Position numbers and translations under genes: made by a program. A DNA stretch of 38,301 nt from an uncultured Synergistales bacterium (lineage in GTDB: Bacteria > Synergistota > Synergistia > Synergistales > Aminobacteriaceae). Numbering within the stretch: position 1 is the stretch's first letter; the number at the start of each line of letters is the position of its first letter. The notes beneath the pieces are model-generated. The model did not search any database and was not told the DNA's origin. It saw nothing but the letters and a program-made list of their open reading frames with translations. The stretch is taken from contig CAJOCL010000015.1 of NCBI GenBank assembly GCA_905233565.1, positions 1 through 38,301 on the forward strand, written 5' to 3'. Positions 149 to 38,131 of this stretch are shown one piece after another.

Positions 149-3100
149 ATGATTAAGAGATTTGCGTTTTCGTTAATGTTTGTAATGCTGATTTCGCCGT
201 TTTCATGGGCTGAATATAGCCCTTCATATTCAGGAAGCGGGGACGGTAAAAGCTCAGATTCTCCGCTCTGGATAGTTACGGCGGGGGATTTGCGTACTCT
301 CAGAGATTCAGTAAATAAAGGTTTAGAAACATCAGGGCGTTATTATATTCTTTCAAGGGACATCAACATAACTGAAAGCGAATGGGAAGCCATCGGGAAT
401 CAGTACACGAGTAACAATCAGTACACGAGCAAAGACGCTTTCACGGGACATTTTGACGGCAACAATAAAACTATACATGTTCAGATAAGACAGCTTACGG
501 AAATAGATAGAGGTGATTATCTTTATCAGGACAGGGCTTTATTCGGCTGTATAAGCACTGATGATGATTATGCCGTGAAAAATTTACATGTTGGGGGCTA
601 TGCTTACGGTTACAATGCTGCGGGGCTGGTTTCCTGTTTAATGTCAGGAACAATTGAATACTGTACTTCCTCAGTAGATATTCATGCTTTTGGTACTGTA
701 GACGATGAAGATGTGGTTGATCATTTTAATCTGGAAAAGTATCTATCCTCTAAGATAAACGCCGGAGGATTTGTGGCAATAATGAGGGGCGGAGCAATAA
801 TTAACTGTGATTTCAGCGGTAAAGTATATGCCAATACTGAAACTGAATTGTTCAAAGCACTTGCAGGCGGTATTGTAGGTTGTATGACAGGTAACAGTAA
901 AATTGTAAATTGCAACGTAAAGCATTATGCCTCAATAACATCAACAGGACTTGACACAATCGAGGAGAGTTCAGCCGAAGAGGAAGCACAGCACGATTCA
1001 GCAGGAGGAATAGCAGGTTATGTAAGCGTTGAAGACGTTTATTTTGACGATGACGACGACACAATAACGGGCTGTAATTTCGAGGGCGGAGAGATAACAA
1101 GCACATATTACGCAGGAGGGATTGCAGGTTACTCACGCGGAGGGCAGTACACATACAATTCAGTAGCCTATGACACGCGTATAACCGGGACAGTTACGGC
1201 AGGAGGAATAATCGGGAGTTTAGGCTCTGGCGGATATGTTTACAGCAATGACGTTGGGGACTGCATAGTGTCGGCAGCGTCAAGGGCAGCAGGAGGAATT
1301 GTCGGACTTCTTGAGTTAGGCTATGTTGACACGAACATTTCAACGGCTGCAATAAGGGGTGATGCACCGTATAAGGGCGGTGTTATCGGTGAAATTCATA
1401 ATCACTACGGGACATCAACGAACGTTACGAATAATGAATATAAGGGAGCTGATTACGGGATCGGCCGAGATGAACATGAATATTTGAATATGGATACGGG
1501 CTGTACGAAATTAGCGGATACGCTGTTATATTTCATAACGCCGTCAACACTTCCTGAGGCGAACGAGAATGAGTTATACACGGCAACAATAGAACTAAGC
1601 CAGTCAGCAATACTTGATTTAAGCCCCATACCTTCATGGATGAAGCCCGTGCAGGACGGTGAAATAATAAAAATAAACGGTGTTCCTACAACAACGGGTA
1701 CAACGTCATTCACTTTGAGCGTCAATTACGGTTACCAGACAATAAAGCGGACGTTCTATATCACGGTAAATTCACAGCTTGAAATCAGCAATGTATATGA
1801 TATGACTGTTTCAGTTGATGACTATATAGAAATTGAGCCTGTAATAAGTTCAAGGAATTTTGACATATCACACGCTTCTTTTAACTGGTCAATCGTCAGC
1901 GGTGAACTTCCGTATAATTTGTCAATTGAAGCAAATACGGGGAAAATTTCAGGTTATGTCCGTGAAGCAGGAACGTTTAACTTTTTTATAAAGGCTGAAC
2001 CTGAGAATGTCAGCTTAAATTCTGTGAGTGTATCAATTAACATTACGGTAGACCCCAAACTGACGATAACAACAGAAGAAATTCCATCATATGTAAAAAT
2101 TGGCTATGAATACTCATGTATTCTTGAAACGTCAGTATCTGAGACATCTGATGTATTTTGGTCATTGTTGTCTGGAAGTTTGCCGGACGGTCTGACGCTC
2201 GGGAGCTTTACAGGAGAGATTACTGGTATTCCGACGGCTGTCGGAACATATGAATTTGCGGTTAAGGCGGCTACAGATAATGCTTCAACGGAAAAGACGT
2301 TCACGGTGATAATAACTCCTGCAATAATGATAACGACAGATTCAGTTCTGCCTTGCGCATTTACCGGAGAATTTTATTCTCAGAATATATCTCACGATGT
2401 ACCGCCAGGCAATACTGTGAAATGGGAAATAATATACGACAGTGAATTTCCTGATGGTTTGTCATTTGATTCAGGAATGATAGCAGGAATTGTTGCAGAC
2501 AGGACGGATATTGCAGGAGATTATAATTTCACTGTGCAGATAAGCGCAGGAGTTTACACGGCAAGTAAGGACTTTACGCTGAGTGTAGTTACGTTCATAA
2601 TATCCAATGATGAGCTGGTTGACGGTGTTGTAGGCACAGAATATCATGATGTCCTCGAAGCTGTAACTATTCCTGAAGGTTCTGTTGTATGGTCGGCTGA
2701 CGCGTCATTGCTTCCTTTGGGATTAACGCTGAGCGAAGACGGTACTATTTCAGGAACTCCAACAACTGAGGGAACATATACTTTCACTGTTGAGGCAATA
2801 TCAGGCGATATATCCTGCGAACAGGACTTCACAATAACCATATACCCTGAAATATCTTTTACCAGTACGGATAAATTCCCTGAACGAATAACTGCTGTTA
2901 GGGAATTTTCGTATCAGTTTTCGACAGATGCTGAAGACCCTGAAAATATAACGTGGTCTTACACAGGAACACTTCCCGACGGACTCACGTTAGGAACTTT
3001 GACAGGCGAATTGACGGGAACTCCGACATCTTCAGGAACTTATACGTTCACGGTATATGCGACTAACGGAGCGGCTGTTGCATCGTACACGTTTACTCTG

Positions 3101-5095
3101 ATAGTTAATCCTGCACTGACAATAACAACTGCTTCTGTGCTGCCTTATGCCTTTACGGGTGAAGAGTATTCAGTTACGCTTGAACATGATGCGCCGTCTG
3201 GAAATACTGTAACGTGGCGGAAGATAAGCGGAGATTTACCGACAGGATTTACGCTAAACGAGAACGGAACAATAACGGGTACTAGCGACACAGCAAGTGT
3301 TTATGACTTCACGGTACAGGCAAGCGCAGGAGTTTACACGGCAAGTAAGGACTTTACGCTAAGCGTAGTACATTTCGTTATATCATCAGATACGATCCTT
3401 CCTGACGGCCTTACAGGCGAAGCATATTCTTATGATTTCAAGGTTAAAGGTGTCTCCGAAGACCTCATAACATGGTCAGCGGATAGCTCTGCTCTTCCTT
3501 CAGGATTAAACTTCAGTAGTTCGGGGCAGCTTTCAGGGATTCCGACATCATCAGGAGAATATACATTTACTGTTCTTGCAGAATCAGGCGATATTGTAAT
3601 ATCAAAAGATTTCACACTAACAGTATATTCGCCTATATCTGTAATAGAGCCAGAGGATTTCCCTTTACGCGTAAAAGTAGGCGAGAATTTTTCATATGTA
3701 TTCTCAACGGATGCCTCAAATCCGGAAACTGTAACTTGGTCAGTATCTTCTGGCACACTTCCTGACGGTCTGACACTTGGAAATTTGACAGGTGAGCTTA
3801 CAGGAACGCCGACATCATCAGGAACTTACACATTCACGATACAGGCCTCAAACGGTGTAGCGGTATCTTCATATACGTTCACTATGATAATTAATCCTGC
3901 TCTGTCTATAGTAACTGATTCAATTCTCCCCTACGCAATTACCGGCTCCGATTACTCAGTTACTCTTGAACACGATGCACCTTCAGGAAATACGGTAACA
4001 TGGAAAAAGATTAGCGGTGATCTTCCTTCAGGTTTTTCGTTGAGCGTAGAGGGTAATATTTCTGGAAGTTGTGAAAATGCTGGGACATATACATTCCGTG
4101 TTCAGGCAAGTGCAGGCGTTTATACTGACAGCAAGGACTTCACAATATCAGTCATAGATTTTGATTTTGCTATATCAGCTGATGAAACTCTCCCATATGC
4201 CGTAATAGGCAGGGATTATAATTACAAATTCATTGCTACAGGAATATCAGAAGATTTGATAACATGGTCAGCAGATGAGAATATCCCTTCAGGTTTGACG
4301 ATGTATTCAAGCGGACTGCTTACGGGAACGCCGACAGATTCAGGCCCTCACACATTCACGGTTTACGCTGAGGCAGGGGGTATTACGGTCTCAAAGAGAG
4401 TAACTCTGAACGTCCTATCTTCAATCACGATATTAACATCTTCACCCCTTCCCAATGCTTACATCGGGCGGAATTATCAGCTTTCGTTGTCTCATGATGT
4501 CCCTTCAGGCAGCTCAATGAGCTGGAAAATAATCAGCGGAGATCTTCCTTCAGGTTTCACGCTTAATTCTCAGACTGGGATTATTTCGGGAGTTACGAAT
4601 GTAGTAAAAGTTTATGATTTCACCGTTGAATTAACGGCAGGATTGACGACAAGCAAGGATTTCAGGCTGCCGGTTGTATATGCTGATTCCGGCACTGCTT
4701 CAGATGATGCAGGCTCAGTGTCAATATTAACGTCTTCCCTTCCGTCAGGAGTTTTGGGACAAGAATATTATGCTGTTCTTGAGTCTTTCCCGTCAGGTGC
4801 TTCATGGTCTCAGAACGGCGGAATAATACCGCCCGGCTTAACCCTCAGTTCTGACGGAACAATCTCGGGAATCCCTTCGGTTGCGGGGACATTCTCATTC
4901 TATGCTGCTGCATCGGCGACATCGTATAAATCCTCAAACAGGCAGTACAGCGTAACGATAGCGCAGTCATCAGGTGAAGACGGAGAAGGAGGAATTAAAA
5001 CAAAATCATCAGGAGGCGGAGGAGGCTGTGATTCAGTTTCGGGTGTTGTTCCGTTGATTTTGTCGTTTGTCTTTGTAGTCTGCAAAAAAAAGTGA
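149..5095 (+). CDS. Giant secreted GLUG/He_PIG-repeat surface protein with Synergist-CTERM anchor
   Basis: This is a 1648-residue exported protein, probably displayed on the cell surface as an adhesin or binding protein; the ligand is unknown. Residues 1-21 are a signal peptide (two basic residues, hydrophobic core, SWA cleavage site). Residues of about 25-455 form a beta-rich region with repeated GGI-A/V-G-type segments like the GLUG motif. From about 457 to 1607 there are 13 putative-Ig units of about 85-95 residues, each with a W-S-x-x-S-G-x-LP-x-GL core, then G-x-I/L-x-G-x-P and a closing F-T-V strand. Units 3-11 form three copies of an A-B-C triplet. The tail (about 1620-1648) has GGGGGCD, a hydrophobic stretch and KKK, matching the Synergist-CTERM sorting layout. 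No Shine-Dalgarno precedes the ATG. It is a paralogue of 35318-38131, which lacks this tail. The function is inferred from architecture only. Confidence 0.9.
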   Translation: MIKRFAFSLMFVMLISPFSWAEYSPSYSGSGDGKSSDSPLWIVTAGDLRTLRDSVNKGLETSGRYYILSRDINITESEWEAIGNQYTSNNQYTSKDAFTGHFDGNNKTIHVQIRQLTEIDRGDYLYQDRALFGCISTDDDYAVKNLHVGGYAYGYNAAGLVSCLMSGTIEYCTSSVDIHAFGTVDDEDVVDHFNLEKYLSSKINAGGFVAIMRGGAIINCDFSGKVYANTETELFKALAGGIVGCMTGNSKIVNCNVKHYASITSTGLDTIEESSAEEEAQHDSAGGIAGYVSVEDVYFDDDDDTITGCNFEGGEITSTYYAGGIAGYSRGGQYTYNSVAYDTRITGTVTAGGIIGSLGSGGYVYSNDVGDCIVSAASRAAGGIVGLLELGYVDTNISTAAIRGDAPYKGGVIGEIHNHYGTSTNVTNNEYKGADYGIGRDEHEYLNMDTGCTKLADTLLYFITPSTLPEANENELYTATIELSQSAILDLSPIPSWMKPVQDGEIIKINGVPTTTGTTSFTLSVNYGYQTIKRTFYITVNSQLEISNVYDMTVSVDDYIEIEPVISSRNFDISHASFNWSIVSGELPYNLSIEANTGKISGYVREAGTFNFFIKAEPENVSLNSVSVSINITVDPKLTITTEEIPSYVKIGYEYSCILETSVSETSDVFWSLLSGSLPDGLTLGSFTGEITGIPTAVGTYEFAVKAATDNASTEKTFTVIITPAIMITTDSVLPCAFTGEFYSQNISHDVPPGNTVKWEIIYDSEFPDGLSFDSGMIAGIVADRTDIAGDYNFTVQISAGVYTASKDFTLSVVTFIISNDELVDGVVGTEYHDVLEAVTIPEGSVVWSADASLLPLGLTLSEDGTISGTPTTEGTYTFTVEAISGDISCEQDFTITIYPEISFTSTDKFPERITAVREFSYQFSTDAEDPENITWSYTGTLPDGLTLGTLTGELTGTPTSSGTYTFTVYATNGAAVASYTFTLIVNPALTITTASVLPYAFTGEEYSVTLEHDAPSGNTVTWRKISGDLPTGFTLNENGTITGTSDTASVYDFTVQASAGVYTASKDFTLSVVHFVISSDTILPDGLTGEAYSYDFKVKGVSEDLITWSADSSALPSGLNFSSSGQLSGIPTSSGEYTFTVLAESGDIVISKDFTLTVYSPISVIEPEDFPLRVKVGENFSYVFSTDASNPETVTWSVSSGTLPDGLTLGNLTGELTGTPTSSGTYTFTIQASNGVAVSSYTFTMIINPALSIVTDSILPYAITGSDYSVTLEHDAPSGNTVTWKKISGDLPSGFSLSVEGNISGSCENAGTYTFRVQASAGVYTDSKDFTISVIDFDFAISADETLPYAVIGRDYNYKFIATGISEDLITWSADENIPSGLTMYSSGLLTGTPTDSGPHTFTVYAEAGGITVSKRVTLNVLSSITILTSSPLPNAYIGRNYQLSLSHDVPSGSSMSWKIISGDLPSGFTLNSQTGIISGVTNVVKVYDFTVELTAGLTTSKDFRLPVVYADSGTASDDAGSVSILTSSLPSGVLGQEYYAVLESFPSGASWSQNGGIIPPGLTLSSDGTISGIPSVAGTFSFYAAASATSYKSSNRQYSVTIAQSSGEDGEGGIKTKSSGGGGGCDSVSGVVPLILSFVFVVCKKK
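2057..4420 (+). repeat. Three tandem copies of a ~785-bp coding super-repeat
   Basis: Units 3-11 of the surface protein at 149-5095 form three consecutive triplets, at 2057-2848, 2849-3631 and 3632-4420 (792, 783 and 789 bp). In each, the first unit carries LPDGLTLG, the second xLPxAxTG...HD-PxGNTV and the third a W-SAD motif. At DNA level a 39-nt block is identical at 2542-2580 and 3322-3360, exactly 780 bp apart, and a diverged copy lies near 4106. A further B-type unit starts at 4421. This points to duplication of 3-unit blocks and makes the locus a likely site of length variation. Confidence 0.75.
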
Positions 5096-33945: not shown

Positions 33946-34000
33946 ATTTTTAATGATAAAATATTTAACAAATCTAAAATTACAGGAGGTTAGAATTAGA

Positions 34001-34987
34001 ATGAGGAAGATATTTTCACTCGCTATAATTCTGGCATTTGTATTCTCAGCTTCAGCTTTTGCAGCTAACAGCGTTCCTTTAAGCGGTCCTTACAAGGACG
34101 GTTCAAGGCTCATCATGGCAACCGGCGGAGAAGGCGGAGAGTATTATTCTTTCGGCTCAATCCTTGCGGAGGCAGTGGGCAGGACTACAAGCACGAACGT
34201 TCGCGTTGCAACTTCAGGCGGTTCAATCGAAAACATCGAGGCACTTGAGAGCGGGAAAGTTCACCTTGCGTTTATTCAGTCGGATGCAGGCTTCTATGCT
34301 GCAAGGGGTATGAGGCTGTTCAACAAGAAATTTGTGAACTTCTCAACCGTTGCGGATTTGTATTTCGAACCTGTACAGATAATCACGCTTAACCCGTCAA
34401 TCGAAAGAATCGAGGACCTGAGGGGTAAGACGGTATCAGTCGGTGCTGAAGGTTCAGGGACGTATTTCAACGCCGTTGATGTTTTCAGTGCTTACGGAAT
34501 GGACATTAACACGGACATTAACCCGGTTTACGAGTCATTCACAAACAGCGTTGATGCTCTTAAAAGCGGGAAAATTGACGCTGCATTCATAGTAGCGGGA
34601 GTTCCGACAAAAGCAGTCAGCGATCTTGCAGGCTCAACGAAAATATTCATCGTCAGCCTTGATGACAAACACATAATGGATCTCATTGCAAAGTCGCCTT
34701 ATTATGCAAAAGTTGAAGTTCCGAAGAGTACATACACGACGGATGACAATGACGTAACAGTTGCGGTACGTTCGATAATTGTTGCGCGTGATGATGTCCC
34801 TGCAAATGACGTGTATAACTTCATGTACGGAGTATTTGAGAATTTGGACGCAATTTCACAGGTTTCCCCGATTGCAGGAAGTTTAAGCCTGAAGTTCGCG
34901 GCATCATATCCGGCGATTCCGTATCATCCCGGCTCAGTGAAATATCTCGGCGAAAAGGGAATATTAGTATCAGGTAAAGCAAAGTAA
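34001..34987 (+). CDS. TAXI-family TRAP solute-binding protein (orphan)
   Basis: A 328-residue exported binding protein. The signal peptide is MRKIFSLAIILAFVFSASAF and the mature part has the TAXI signature (MATGGEGGEYYSFGSILAEAV), then LAFIQSDAGFYAARG and GKTVSVGAEGSGT. TAXI proteins bind substrates such as glutamate, oxoglutarate or other dicarboxylates and hand them to a fused DctQM permease. No permease is in the window. The frame extends back to 33953, but AGGAGG at 33984-33989 and the signal peptide fix ATG 34001. A terminator follows at once. Confidence 0.93.
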   Translation: MRKIFSLAIILAFVFSASAFAANSVPLSGPYKDGSRLIMATGGEGGEYYSFGSILAEAVGRTTSTNVRVATSGGSIENIEALESGKVHLAFIQSDAGFYAARGMRLFNKKFVNFSTVADLYFEPVQIITLNPSIERIEDLRGKTVSVGAEGSGTYFNAVDVFSAYGMDINTDINPVYESFTNSVDALKSGKIDAAFIVAGVPTKAVSDLAGSTKIFIVSLDDKHIMDLIAKSPYYAKVEVPKSTYTTDDNDVTVAVRSIIVARDDVPANDVYNFMYGVFENLDAISQVSPIAGSLSLKFAASYPAIPYHPGSVKYLGEKGILVSGKAK

Positions 34988-35016: not shown

Positions 35017-35045
35017 GCCGCCGCTCTTTGAAGTGGCGGTTTTTC
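35017..35045 (+). terminator. Rho-independent terminator after the TAXI gene
   Basis: CCGCC (35018-35022) pairs with GGCGG (35035-35039), with extra TC/GA pairing inside, and is followed by T5 and CATATTT. It ends the TAXI transcript and isolates the leader of the next surface-protein gene. Confidence 0.75.
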
Positions 35046-35120: not shown

Positions 35121-35153
35121 TTGACACGAAAAAAAAGCAAGGTATGTTATAAT
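35121..35153 (+). promoter_or_regulatory. Rightward promoter of the second surface-protein gene
   Basis: A perfect extended -10 (TGTTATAAT, 35145-35153) would start transcription near 35160 and give a 5' UTR of about 158 nt. A consensus TTGACA lies at 35121-35126, but the spacer is 21 nt, so it is either unused or pairs with TATGTT (35143-35148, 16-nt spacer). Confidence 0.5.
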
Positions 35154-35216
35154 TATATCAATCGAAAAAGTTTTGACACATGACTGAGGTTATAATCCTC
35201 CAGTCTACCTTGCTAA
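35128..35216 (-). ncRNA. Candidate small RNA antisense to the 5' UTR of the 35318 gene
   Basis: On the minus strand a perfect extended -10 (TGATATAAT, 35231-35223) places the start near 35216. The RNA would open with AGCAAGGTA (35214-35206), then a hairpin GACTGGAGG / CCTCAGTC (loop ATTATAA), then a 37-nt AU-rich stretch, and close with TACCTTGCT (35144-35136) followed by T8. The closing stem is a perfect 9-bp match and ends in a terminator-like U-run. The predicted 5' end falls just before the stem. Length is about 88 nt. The first 55-57 nt are complementary to the start of the rightward UTR. No known RNA family was recognised. Confidence 0.4.
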
Positions 35217-35258
35217 TTACGTATTATATCATATTGCAAGTTTGGGCAGGTCATGTGT
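35136..35258 (+). other. Interleaved inverted repeats in the 5' leader of the second surface protein
   Basis: Two perfect 9-bp pairs are interleaved: AGCAAGGTA (35136-35144) with TACCTTGCT (35206-35214), and ACACATGAC (35176-35184) with GTCATGTGT (35250-35258). A third hairpin, GACTGAGG / CCTCCAGTC (35182-35205), shares GAC with the second pair, so those two folds compete. CTTGC (35209-35213) can also pair with GCAAG (35236-35240). The rest of 35046-35317 holds AT-rich spacer and AGGAGG (35303-35308), with no gene on the plus strand. Confidence 0.6.
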
Positions 35259-35317
35259 ACTTTCTACTATCTTCGTAACTGCTAAACATTAATTTAATAA
35301 TTAGGAGGTAATTGAAA

Positions 35318-38131
35318 ATGAGAAAAATATTATCAATTTTTCTCGCGGTTTGTCTGCTTACAGCCGGCTCTGCGGCTTGGGCAGATTATTGGAACGAGGG
35401 CAATAGCGGTACAACAGAGGACGATGCGTACTTAATTGACTCGATCGATGACTTGAAGGCACTGCGCGACAGGGTAAACGCAGGAATAGAACCCGACGAC
35501 AGGTATTACAGGCTCGAAACTGATATGAACTTAACAGAATTAACGGACTGGGAACCTATCGGCACAAGCGTAACGGAGTTTGATCCTGCCGGCACAAGCG
35601 ACCACCCTTTCAAGGGACACTTCAACGGTAATAATCACTTGCTCTATGTCAACATAACTCGGCAGGACGGCGAAGCAGAGGGCAGAGAAACAAGAAACGG
35701 TATTTTCTGGGCAGTAAATTCAACAGGAGTTGCAATAAAAAATCTCAAAGTTGACGGTTACATAACAGGCAATTATGTCGGAGGCATAGCGGTTGACTTG
35801 CTGGGAGGAACAATAGATAACTGCAAGTTCACGGGGACAATAGAAGGGTATTATCCCGATTGGTATTATGGTCACGCGGTATGCGTCGGAGGCGGAGGCG
35901 GTATCGTTTGTCATATTTCAGGAGGCTTAATCAAAAATTGTTCCGTAACTGCCACAGTAAAAGGACATAATCGTGATTATGATGCGAACGAGGATATAGC
36001 CTACGCGGGGGGTATAGCGGCCTACATGGACGGAGGCAGCATTCAGAACTGCGAAGTCCTGGCAGGTTCCAGCGTCTCCGCATATCTGTATTACAGCGGA
36101 GTAAACGATCTCACTTATGCAGGGGGCATTGTAGGATATGCGAATCTCGGGCTTGAACAGTCAATCAAAAACTGTACATTTGACGGTACTATTAACAGTA
36201 AAGGCAAGTTCGCAGGAGGAATTGTAGCCTATTTAAGCGGAGGCACCATATCCGGCAACAGCATATCGAAGAATACAACAGTTACCAGCCTTTACATTGT
36301 AGGAGGAATCGCGGGACGTATCGGCGCAGGTTCTGTAGTCAGCAGCAATTCAGTCGTAACAGGAGCAGGCGTAACGGCATTCGTTGAACCGGGAGAAGTA
36401 GCATACAGCATCGGCGGAATTATCGGCCTCATGAATGCAGGTACTGTCAAAGATAATACAGCATATGCCACGCTTTCGGGAACAGCCTCATACATCGGGG
36501 GCGTAATCGGCAAAGTTGAAAGTGAAAGAAGTGCAACCATAACAATTTCAGAGAATGAGTACAGCGGTGCGACATACGGAATCGGATTTGACGCTTCAGG
36601 TTTTCCAAGCAATGAAGGCTGTATAAATGCAAGCGAAAAAGTAGCGATAAAAACAACATCGCTAAAAGCAGGCATTATAAAAGCAGCTTATTCAGTTACG
36701 ATTGAGAGAACCGGAGGGGCTTCGCCCTACACGTGGGCAATAAGTTCAGGCAAACTTCCGGCCGGACTGACACTCAACAAGACTACGGGCAAGCTCTCAG
36801 GTAAACCGACAAAAGCAGGAACTTTCAATTTTACCGTTAAGGTTACTGACAAAAACAAAAAGACCGCAACAAAAGCATTCACGCTGAAAATAACACAGCC
36901 TTCAATCTCAGGCACCCTGAACAATGGCATAATGAAAGCGTCATATTCAGGAACTCTCAAGGCAACGGGCGGAACTTCTGCTTACACGTGGACAATAAGT
37001 TCAGGGAAACTTCCGACAGGTCTTGTTATCGGCAAAAGTAACGGCAAAATTACGGGAACGCCCACAGCAGCAGGAACTTTCAATTTCACGGTTAAAGTTA
37101 CTGACAAAAACGGCGCAACCGCGACTAAGTCATACAAAATCGAGATAACAAAGCCCGTAATTTCAGGAACGCTTAAAAACGGAATACAGAAAGCCGCATA
37201 TTCAGCCACACTAAAAGCAACGGGCGGAACAGCAGCTTATACTTGGTCAATAAGCAGCGGTGCACTTCCAAAGGGGATGACACTCAACAAGACTACGGGC
37301 AAAATCTCAGGAACTCCGACAGCAACAGGAACTTTCAAATTTACGGTTAAAGTTACGGACAAAAACAAAGTAACGGCTACAAAAGTTTACACGCTGAAAA
37401 TAACGAAGACAACAATCGGCGGAACTATCTGCACAGGTGTAATTGAAGGCTATAGCTATTCAAGTACACTGACGGTCAGCGGAGGAACGGCGGCTTACAA
37501 GTGGACGATCAGCAAAGGGAAACTCCCAACCGGCCTTAAACTCACTTATTCAGGGACAACCGCGACAATTTCAGGAACTCCGACAAAAGCCGGAACATTC
37601 TCATTCACGGTTAAAGTTACGGATAAAAACAGCGTTGCAGCAACTAAGGCATTCAGCGTCTATGTTGTCTCAAAATCTTTAATCCAAACGGCAACGAAGA
37701 ATGTTAAATCGGCTTCGGCAACAGTTAAGGCTGCTTCAAGCAATAAGAAGACTTCACAAAGCCTTACCGCTGCAGTTCCTAATATCATGACAAATAATCC
37801 TTCAGCTTTTCAGGGCAACGGAACTATTACACTTGCTACAACATTGAGTGTTGCAAGCGATGATGTTGTTGAAACTTATGAGGGCAAGGACAGCGATCTT
37901 GTGAAGGTTAAGGCAAATACTGAATTAACGTTCATAATCGGCGAATGGGGAGTTGATGTCTCAGAATTGACTGTTTATGTTGATGATAAACCTGTAGAGG
38001 GCTTAACGGTTGAAGAGGGCAAATTCACTCTTACGCCTGAAATGGTACACGATGATTTCAAAGTCAGCGTTAAGGCTCAAAGTGAGGGCGTTGAACTTGA
38101 ATCGGAGGAAGTCTACATAATTTCAGAGTAA
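35318..38131 (+). CDS. Secreted GLUG/He_PIG-repeat surface protein lacking the CTERM anchor
   Basis: A 937-residue exported protein, paralogous to the one at 149-5095. The signal peptide ends near AAWA. An N-terminal domain with DDLKALRDRVNAG and FKGHFNGNNH closely follows the first protein's GDLRTLRDSVNKG and FTGHFDGNNK. GLUG-like GGI-x-G segments run to about residue 430. Four putative-Ig units (about 445-785) follow, Lys-rich and with a GTPTxxGTFxFTVKVTDKN core. A separate acidic C-terminal domain (about 830-937) ends at IISE, with no Synergist-CTERM. The start is ATG 35318, 9 nt after AGGAGG; TTG 35312 is too close to it. It has its own long structured leader and a terminator. The ligand is unknown. 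Confidence 0.92.
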   Translation: MRKILSIFLAVCLLTAGSAAWADYWNEGNSGTTEDDAYLIDSIDDLKALRDRVNAGIEPDDRYYRLETDMNLTELTDWEPIGTSVTEFDPAGTSDHPFKGHFNGNNHLLYVNITRQDGEAEGRETRNGIFWAVNSTGVAIKNLKVDGYITGNYVGGIAVDLLGGTIDNCKFTGTIEGYYPDWYYGHAVCVGGGGGIVCHISGGLIKNCSVTATVKGHNRDYDANEDIAYAGGIAAYMDGGSIQNCEVLAGSSVSAYLYYSGVNDLTYAGGIVGYANLGLEQSIKNCTFDGTINSKGKFAGGIVAYLSGGTISGNSISKNTTVTSLYIVGGIAGRIGAGSVVSSNSVVTGAGVTAFVEPGEVAYSIGGIIGLMNAGTVKDNTAYATLSGTASYIGGVIGKVESERSATITISENEYSGATYGIGFDASGFPSNEGCINASEKVAIKTTSLKAGIIKAAYSVTIERTGGASPYTWAISSGKLPAGLTLNKTTGKLSGKPTKAGTFNFTVKVTDKNKKTATKAFTLKITQPSISGTLNNGIMKASYSGTLKATGGTSAYTWTISSGKLPTGLVIGKSNGKITGTPTAAGTFNFTVKVTDKNGATATKSYKIEITKPVISGTLKNGIQKAAYSATLKATGGTAAYTWSISSGALPKGMTLNKTTGKISGTPTATGTFKFTVKVTDKNKVTATKVYTLKITKTTIGGTICTGVIEGYSYSSTLTVSGGTAAYKWTISKGKLPTGLKLTYSGTTATISGTPTKAGTFSFTVKVTDKNSVAATKAFSVYVVSKSLIQTATKNVKSASATVKAASSNKKTSQSLTAAVPNIMTNNPSAFQGNGTITLATTLSVASDDVVETYEGKDSDLVKVKANTELTFIIGEWGVDVSELTVYVDDKPVEGLTVEEGKFTLTPEMVHDDFKVSVKAQSEGVELESEEVYIISE

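Follow-up and report, generated by a model that had tools for sequence, protein, structure and literature searches.

We identified a 145-base element 5′ of surface-protein and pilus genes in rumen bacteria of one genus, and demonstrate its anatomy, conservation, covariation, strand assignment, gene association and divergence between copies. Our preferred explanation, held with moderate confidence and in the absence of transcript data, is that the element works as a self-contained RNA control module, transcribed in both directions, within the leader of a gene for an exported protein, and most likely represses that gene in cis.

Two facing promoters and two stems in one leader

The window, by which we mean the whole 38,301-nt stretch analysed, corresponds to contig C15 in a metagenome-assembled genome of 2.0 Mb from a rumen member of the Synergistaceae. 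Here the element lies between a TAXI/NMT1-type binding-protein gene (33953-34987), whose intrinsic terminator (35017-35040, plus strand) separates it from the module, and the putative controlled gene (35318-38131, plus strand), which encodes a 937-aa secreted surface protein with a signal peptide and GLUG and He_PIG domains and is preceded by the Shine-Dalgarno sequence GGAGG (35304-35308, plus strand). Two extended -10 elements face each other, located exactly as originally claimed: rightward TGTTATAAT at 35145-35153 in the promoter TATGTTATAAT (TRTGnTATAAT; 35143-35153, plus strand), which would start the leader RNA at ~35160, and leftward TGATATAAT at 35231-35223 in the promoter TATGATATAAT (35223-35233, minus strand), which would start an antisense RNA at ~35216. 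A repeat finder likewise recovered both of the perfect 9-bp inverted pairs that had been described, 35136-35144 with 35206-35214 and 35176-35184 with 35250-35258.

The first pair, AGCAAGGTA and TACCTTGCT on the plus strand, supplies the 3′ arm (35136-35144) and 5′ arm (35206-35214) of stem P1 in the minus-strand RNA; the bases of this second arm also contribute to the 5′ arm of hairpin H2 in the leader. If it starts 7 nt past the leftward -10 element and ends in the T-run, the predicted antisense small RNA (sRNA) is ~88 nt long (35129-35216, minus strand), with P1 as closing stem, two inner hairpins and a 3′ U-run (35129-35135; an A-run on the plus strand). This geometry agrees with the proposed transcript from stem arm to stem arm plus T8, which shares its first base with the stem arm because the A-run occupies 35129-35136. 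The second pair, ACACATGAC at 35176-35184 and GTCATGTGT at 35250-35258, forms the 5′ and 3′ arms of stem P2 in the leader RNA (plus strand). An inner hairpin at 35181-35205 is common to the two strands (H1 in the leader, its mirror M1 in the antisense RNA), and leader hairpin H2 (CTTGC/GCAAG; 35209-35240, plus strand) holds the leftward -10 element in its loop. A U-rich tract, ACTTTCTACTATCTTCG (35259-35275, plus strand), follows P2 as a candidate attenuator tail that is weak here and stronger in pilin copies. The predicted overlap of the two RNAs is ~57 nt, close to the ~55 nt of complementarity first suggested, and contains one P2 arm, the inner hairpin in its mirror forms and the 5′ end of the antisense RNA.

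A multicopy family in one genus and a second of its family

Features of a single window prove little on their own: promoter-like sites in the window occur at chance level (10 found against 9.9 expected in shuffled sequence). The TTGACA at 35121-35126 lies 21 nt from the -10 element, too far for a standard promoter. The decisive evidence for the putative module is comparative conservation across nine elements. BLASTN with a 271-base query returned relatives in the same genus. Nine copies, drawn from the window and seven further genomes, were read out; in every one, both TGnTATAAT boxes, the A-run and the two stems (as ACACATG...CATGTGT and AGnAAGG...CTTnCT) are conserved.

We built covariance model R1 from these nine copies and a second model, R2, from 71 members. 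Such a search of relatives had been proposed at the outset, and it placed the element in 37 of 43 congeneric genomes and, elsewhere in the family, in 2 genomes from a second genus; the other 57 genera searched in the order had none. About 130 elements were read out in all. E-values of these short-calibrated models are rough, and the genomes are metagenome assemblies. A pattern scan of 85,000 species genomes matched rumen Synergistaceae and five stray sequences only. The motif also turned up in 14 viral contigs; we took these matches, and those in the 5 unrelated genomes, to be chance, as none fits the family model. One diverged, more G+C-rich (46%) copy, L163, belongs to another genus of the family (genome G097) and precedes a frame starting MRRGCLWFATSCLLYFFACVVLVTGSAEA with a signal peptide; the family therefore extends past the genus.

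Copies number 1 to 37 per genome, the largest sets being those of G028 (37), G033 (34), G010 (23) and G030 (22); the source genome has 5, three of them strong. Within one genome the overlap regions of different copies have a median similarity of about 0.6, and nearly identical pairs are rare (17 of 465 in G028). Because the overlap diverges in this way, most antisense RNAs should be locus-specific, and some cross-talk between predicted antisense RNAs should be expected at recently duplicated pilin loci.

Among 129 distinct elements, the rightward TG.TATAAT is present in 122 (119 of them with TR before the box) and the leftward ATTATAnCA in 128 (127 with the TR extension), so that 127 of 129 carry a full leftward TRTGnTATAAT promoter facing the sense gene. 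The TR of this extension was not demanded by the search pattern. Beyond the first nine copies the -10 frequencies are biased upward, since R1 and R2 favour conserved motifs, and comparison among family elements revealed no well-conserved conventional -35 box for either promoter.

Covariation assigns each stem to one strand

The minus-strand RNA of the window folds with a z score of -4.5, none of 200 shuffles being as good; the whole leader is less striking (z -1.4). Across the family both RNAs beat their shuffles, at a z of about -4 for the antisense RNA (mean -4.1) and -3.8 for the leader. In the antisense RNAs the P1 pair probability is 0.89 and the A-run averages 5.4 of 7 positions. Each RNA is predicted to fold as a three-way junction closed by its own stem, P1 in the antisense RNA and P2 in the leader, with P1 running into the U-run on the antisense strand.

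P2 has standard pairs in 97.3% of cells over 70 distinct sequences, above all 500 shuffles, and its copies exchange A-U, G-C and G-U pairs. The G-U cells would be mismatches in DNA or in RNA of the opposite strand, so the wobble pattern requires an RNA rather than a DNA palindrome. We counted wobbles with a strand-neutral scan of one member per 80% cluster (59 clusters), which removes shared ancestry from these counts only in part. Read as plus- versus minus-strand RNA, wobbles numbered 71 versus 6 in P2, 3 versus 15 in P1 and 48 versus 23 in H2; by element, the split was 43 to 2 for P2 (p 6e-11), 3 to 13 for P1 (p 0.02) and 25 to 11 for H2 (p 0.03). In P1 the two arms vary in step, which gives many types (AGCAAGG/CCTTGCT, AGACAAGG/CCTTGTCT, AGATAAGG/CCTTATCT, AAGATAGAGG/CCTCTATCTT and CAAAAGAAG/CTTCTTTTG), and stem arms are 98% paired with their own partners versus 66-70% when partners are swapped between copies. 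The counts for P1 used arms placed by the strand-neutral scan. A MAFFT alignment of 30 minus-strand RNAs was excluded from the counts, since variable hairpin lengths led it to place the 5′ stem arms wrongly.

Together, the covariation and the opposite-strand wobbles assign P1 to the leftward RNA, and P2 and H2 to the rightward one. This split matches what an antisense sRNA with a structured mRNA leader would predict. Compensatory changes in both stems, whose absence among relatives would have refuted the original prediction, are in fact abundant and strand-specific, and lend support to its cis-antisense or pairing-switch interpretation. One part of that interpretation needs revision: the second, interleaved 9-bp pair is present, but P1 and P2 are parts of separate RNAs, one from each strand, and are not competing folds of a single transcript.

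The same data bear on two readings that dispense with RNA pairing. A mobile or DNA-level element (an IS200/IS605 end, a REP or MITE sequence, or an invertible promoter with the P2 arms as inverted repeats) would fit the many copies and inverted repeats. It is barely credible, however, given stem arms that keep RNA wobbles at the cost of DNA symmetry, diverged copies, a single orientation with the leftward promoter pointing the same way in every parsed copy, a fixed place 17-234 nt before gene starts, and viral contigs that share the motif without matching the family model. Polymerase collision at the facing promoters could alternatively give switch-like expression by itself, with the sRNA as a by-product. 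The conserved spacing and orientation of the promoters are in keeping with this, and facing promoters can produce bistable switches, as modelled in PMC4519249. Yet interference alone has no need of covariation with strand-specific wobbles in P1, P2 and H2, and we regard it as improbable.

Elements precede genes for pilins and other exported proteins

A plausible same-strand start codon with a ribosome site lies 17-234 nt downstream of 119 of the 130 elements. The gene encodes an exported protein after 111 of these 119: 64 are pilin-like, their starts carrying the type IV pilin signature GFTLVEL, 17 lipoprotein-like and 30 other signal-peptide or membrane proteins. The remaining 8 are other genes, some of them visibly missed starts. 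Export was called by a crude hydropathy rule on the N-terminus; applied to the genes of the window for comparison, this rule called 14 of 32 exported and none pilin-like. The module first proposed for one surface protein is not confined to that gene: the family is genus-wide and lies at many pilin, lipoprotein and surface-protein genes.

This regulon-like set of exported proteins and pilins, behind a conserved leader structure, could also point to a ligand- or protein-sensing leader of the riboswitch or thermosensor type, in which the antisense promoter-like sequences are incidental. We judge this a shade less plausible than interference alone: the leader has no Rfam match, the most conserved parts are the promoter boxes rather than an aptamer core, and P1 pairs as a minus-strand RNA with a terminal U-run.

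Several observations concern individual downstream genes. G028, G033, G010 and G030 have an unusually large repertoire of pilin-like genes: in these genomes, dozens of genes that follow the element encode small proteins (140-250 aa) whose N-terminus is that of a type IV pilin (GFTLVELLIV). At pilin loci including L107, L109, L115, L148, L185 and L190, a second conserved structured stretch separates the element from the start codon, for example GTGCGGTGAGAGTCCGTGCAAGG...ATAGGCGGCGGATGA or TTTGCAGTAACCAGTCTGCAAG...TTCATCTGTAATAGGCGGCGGATGAA. It had no Rfam match in the one leader scanned, and could represent either a further regulatory RNA or a site of processing. At L030 (G028:C110), a 48-aa frame, MGKFSYEKPEAEVTFFGNEDVITASGN..., begins 37 nt past the element and resembles a peptide precursor, not an exported protein. 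At its other end, the window carries a second large surface-protein gene (149-5095; 1648 aa, signal peptide), with no recognisable element in the 148 upstream bases within the contig.

Proposed repression in cis and the antitermination alternative

In the mechanism that we propose, the rightward promoter would give an mRNA leader folded as a three-way junction, with P2 enclosing H1 and H2, and the leftward promoter inside the leader would give the ~88-nt antisense sRNA, a mirror three-way junction closed by P1 and ended by its own U-run. Over their first ~57 nt the leader and the sRNA would be perfectly complementary. Both have the inner hairpin there, one on each strand, so contact between these hairpins would initiate pairing and open P2. 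Down-regulation in cis would follow from cleavage of the duplex by RNase III, together with collision of the convergent RNA polymerases, and each surface gene would thereby have its own switch. RNase III is present in the genome; the NCBIfam model for Hfq found no match. That both RNAs are produced, that they pair and that pairing represses are inferences, with no transcript data for either RNA, and the direction of regulation does not follow from sequence alone.

Translational control is unsupported. We modelled occlusion or release of the Shine-Dalgarno sequence by antisense pairing in 98 classified leaders, comparing the free leader with the leader minus the overlap, and the predicted mean accessibility of the ribosome site was nearly unchanged. 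An upstream reading frame from the ATG in CACATG was also rejected, as this ATG is changed in many copies (CACACA, CACACG, CACATA) and has no ribosome site in the window.

The main rival to repression starts from the leader being T-rich after P2, such that P2 might be an attenuator and the antisense RNA would oppose termination, counter to repression. In full, the P2 junction and U-rich tract would form an intrinsic terminator, and the sRNA would block P2 and activate the gene. In both gene classes a T-rich stretch directly follows P2, reaching up to 78% T at positions 5-10 before dropping, and in pilin copies the tract is often A5T5; by geometry, the antisense overlap takes in the 5′ arm of P2 and leaves out its 3′ arm in every parsed copy. 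Against this, the enclosed loop is long (65-90 nt), though structured, the T-tract is weak in the window (ACTTTCTACT) and the described natural antisense attenuator, pT181, works in reverse (PMC4878617). Canonical short-loop terminators occur in only 17 of 104 leaders. We consider antitermination unlikely but not negligible, and give the same weight to its broadest form, in which cis-encoded antisense RNAs throughout the genus naturally activate surface and pilus genes by keeping a terminator in the leader from acting. Were it so, two mirror-image three-way junctions, one on each strand and each with its closing stem running into a U-tract, would make dozens of separately tuned or bistable switches for cell-surface variation in a single bacterium. 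Repression through pairing, decay and polymerase interference remains the reading that we rank most likely.

The architecture would be a general route to a private RNA switch for each surface gene, with relevance to host colonisation, phage receptors and population heterogeneity. RNA engineering could also draw on the family for many natural sense-antisense pairs that have diverged from one another, and the family makes clear predictions for existing rumen metatranscriptomes.

Comparison with known systems

The original prediction recognised no family for the element, and Rfam 15 bears this out: the window has no match at the gathering threshold, the best sub-threshold scores under relaxed thresholds are 14-16 bits against gathering thresholds of 44-77, and no element match was found over eight related loci. 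Nor did we find a described equivalent in Synergistetes in the literature. A type I toxin-antitoxin system was rejected, as the downstream genes mostly encode large exported proteins or pilins and the P2 ATG lacks conservation.

The prgQ/prgX switch of pCF10 shares with the present prediction a pair of convergent promoters whose antisense RNAs overlap, but it controls plasmid conjugation with a peptide-responsive repressor. In small transcription activating RNAs (STARs), which are synthetic, an RNA acting in trans on the 5′ arm of a leader terminator permits read-through. The geometry of the present element would allow such binding to a terminator arm and read-through, but STARs are engineered, whereas this antisense RNA is predicted to be a cis product of a leader-internal promoter, and activation by it is hypothetical. 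RNAIII of pIP501 is similar to the antisense attenuator of the pT181 type. In pT181 itself, the antisense RNA covers the anti-terminator and causes termination (PMC4878617). It resembles our prediction in being complementary to the 5′ part of a structured leader, with pairing thought to start hairpin to hairpin and to cause refolding (PMC4878617); in contrast, the target of the present antisense RNA would be the 5′ arm of P2, the sole terminator candidate, rather than an anti-terminator, and the elements are chromosomal, in many copies and without a rep gene.

The closest precedent in setting is DonS, a set of cis-antisense sRNAs of 78-128 nt at susC homologues in Bacteroides that are reported to repress (PMC7366714). 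Both families consist of short antisense RNAs that recur many times within a gut bacterium, with an outer-surface gene next to each, but DonS belongs to another phylum and is partnered with the susC genes of polysaccharide loci (PMC7366714). A comparison limited to Rfam gave no match that would relate the two in sequence. The partners here are pilins, lipoproteins and GLUG/He_PIG proteins rather than susC homologues, and the sense leader, too, has a conserved, covarying structure. Leader-internal antisense RNAs have so far been known singly or as the DonS set; the present family has one architecture with strong, strand-resolved covariation, which recurs as many as ~37 times per genome and is associated with the pilins and surface proteins of rumen bacteria.
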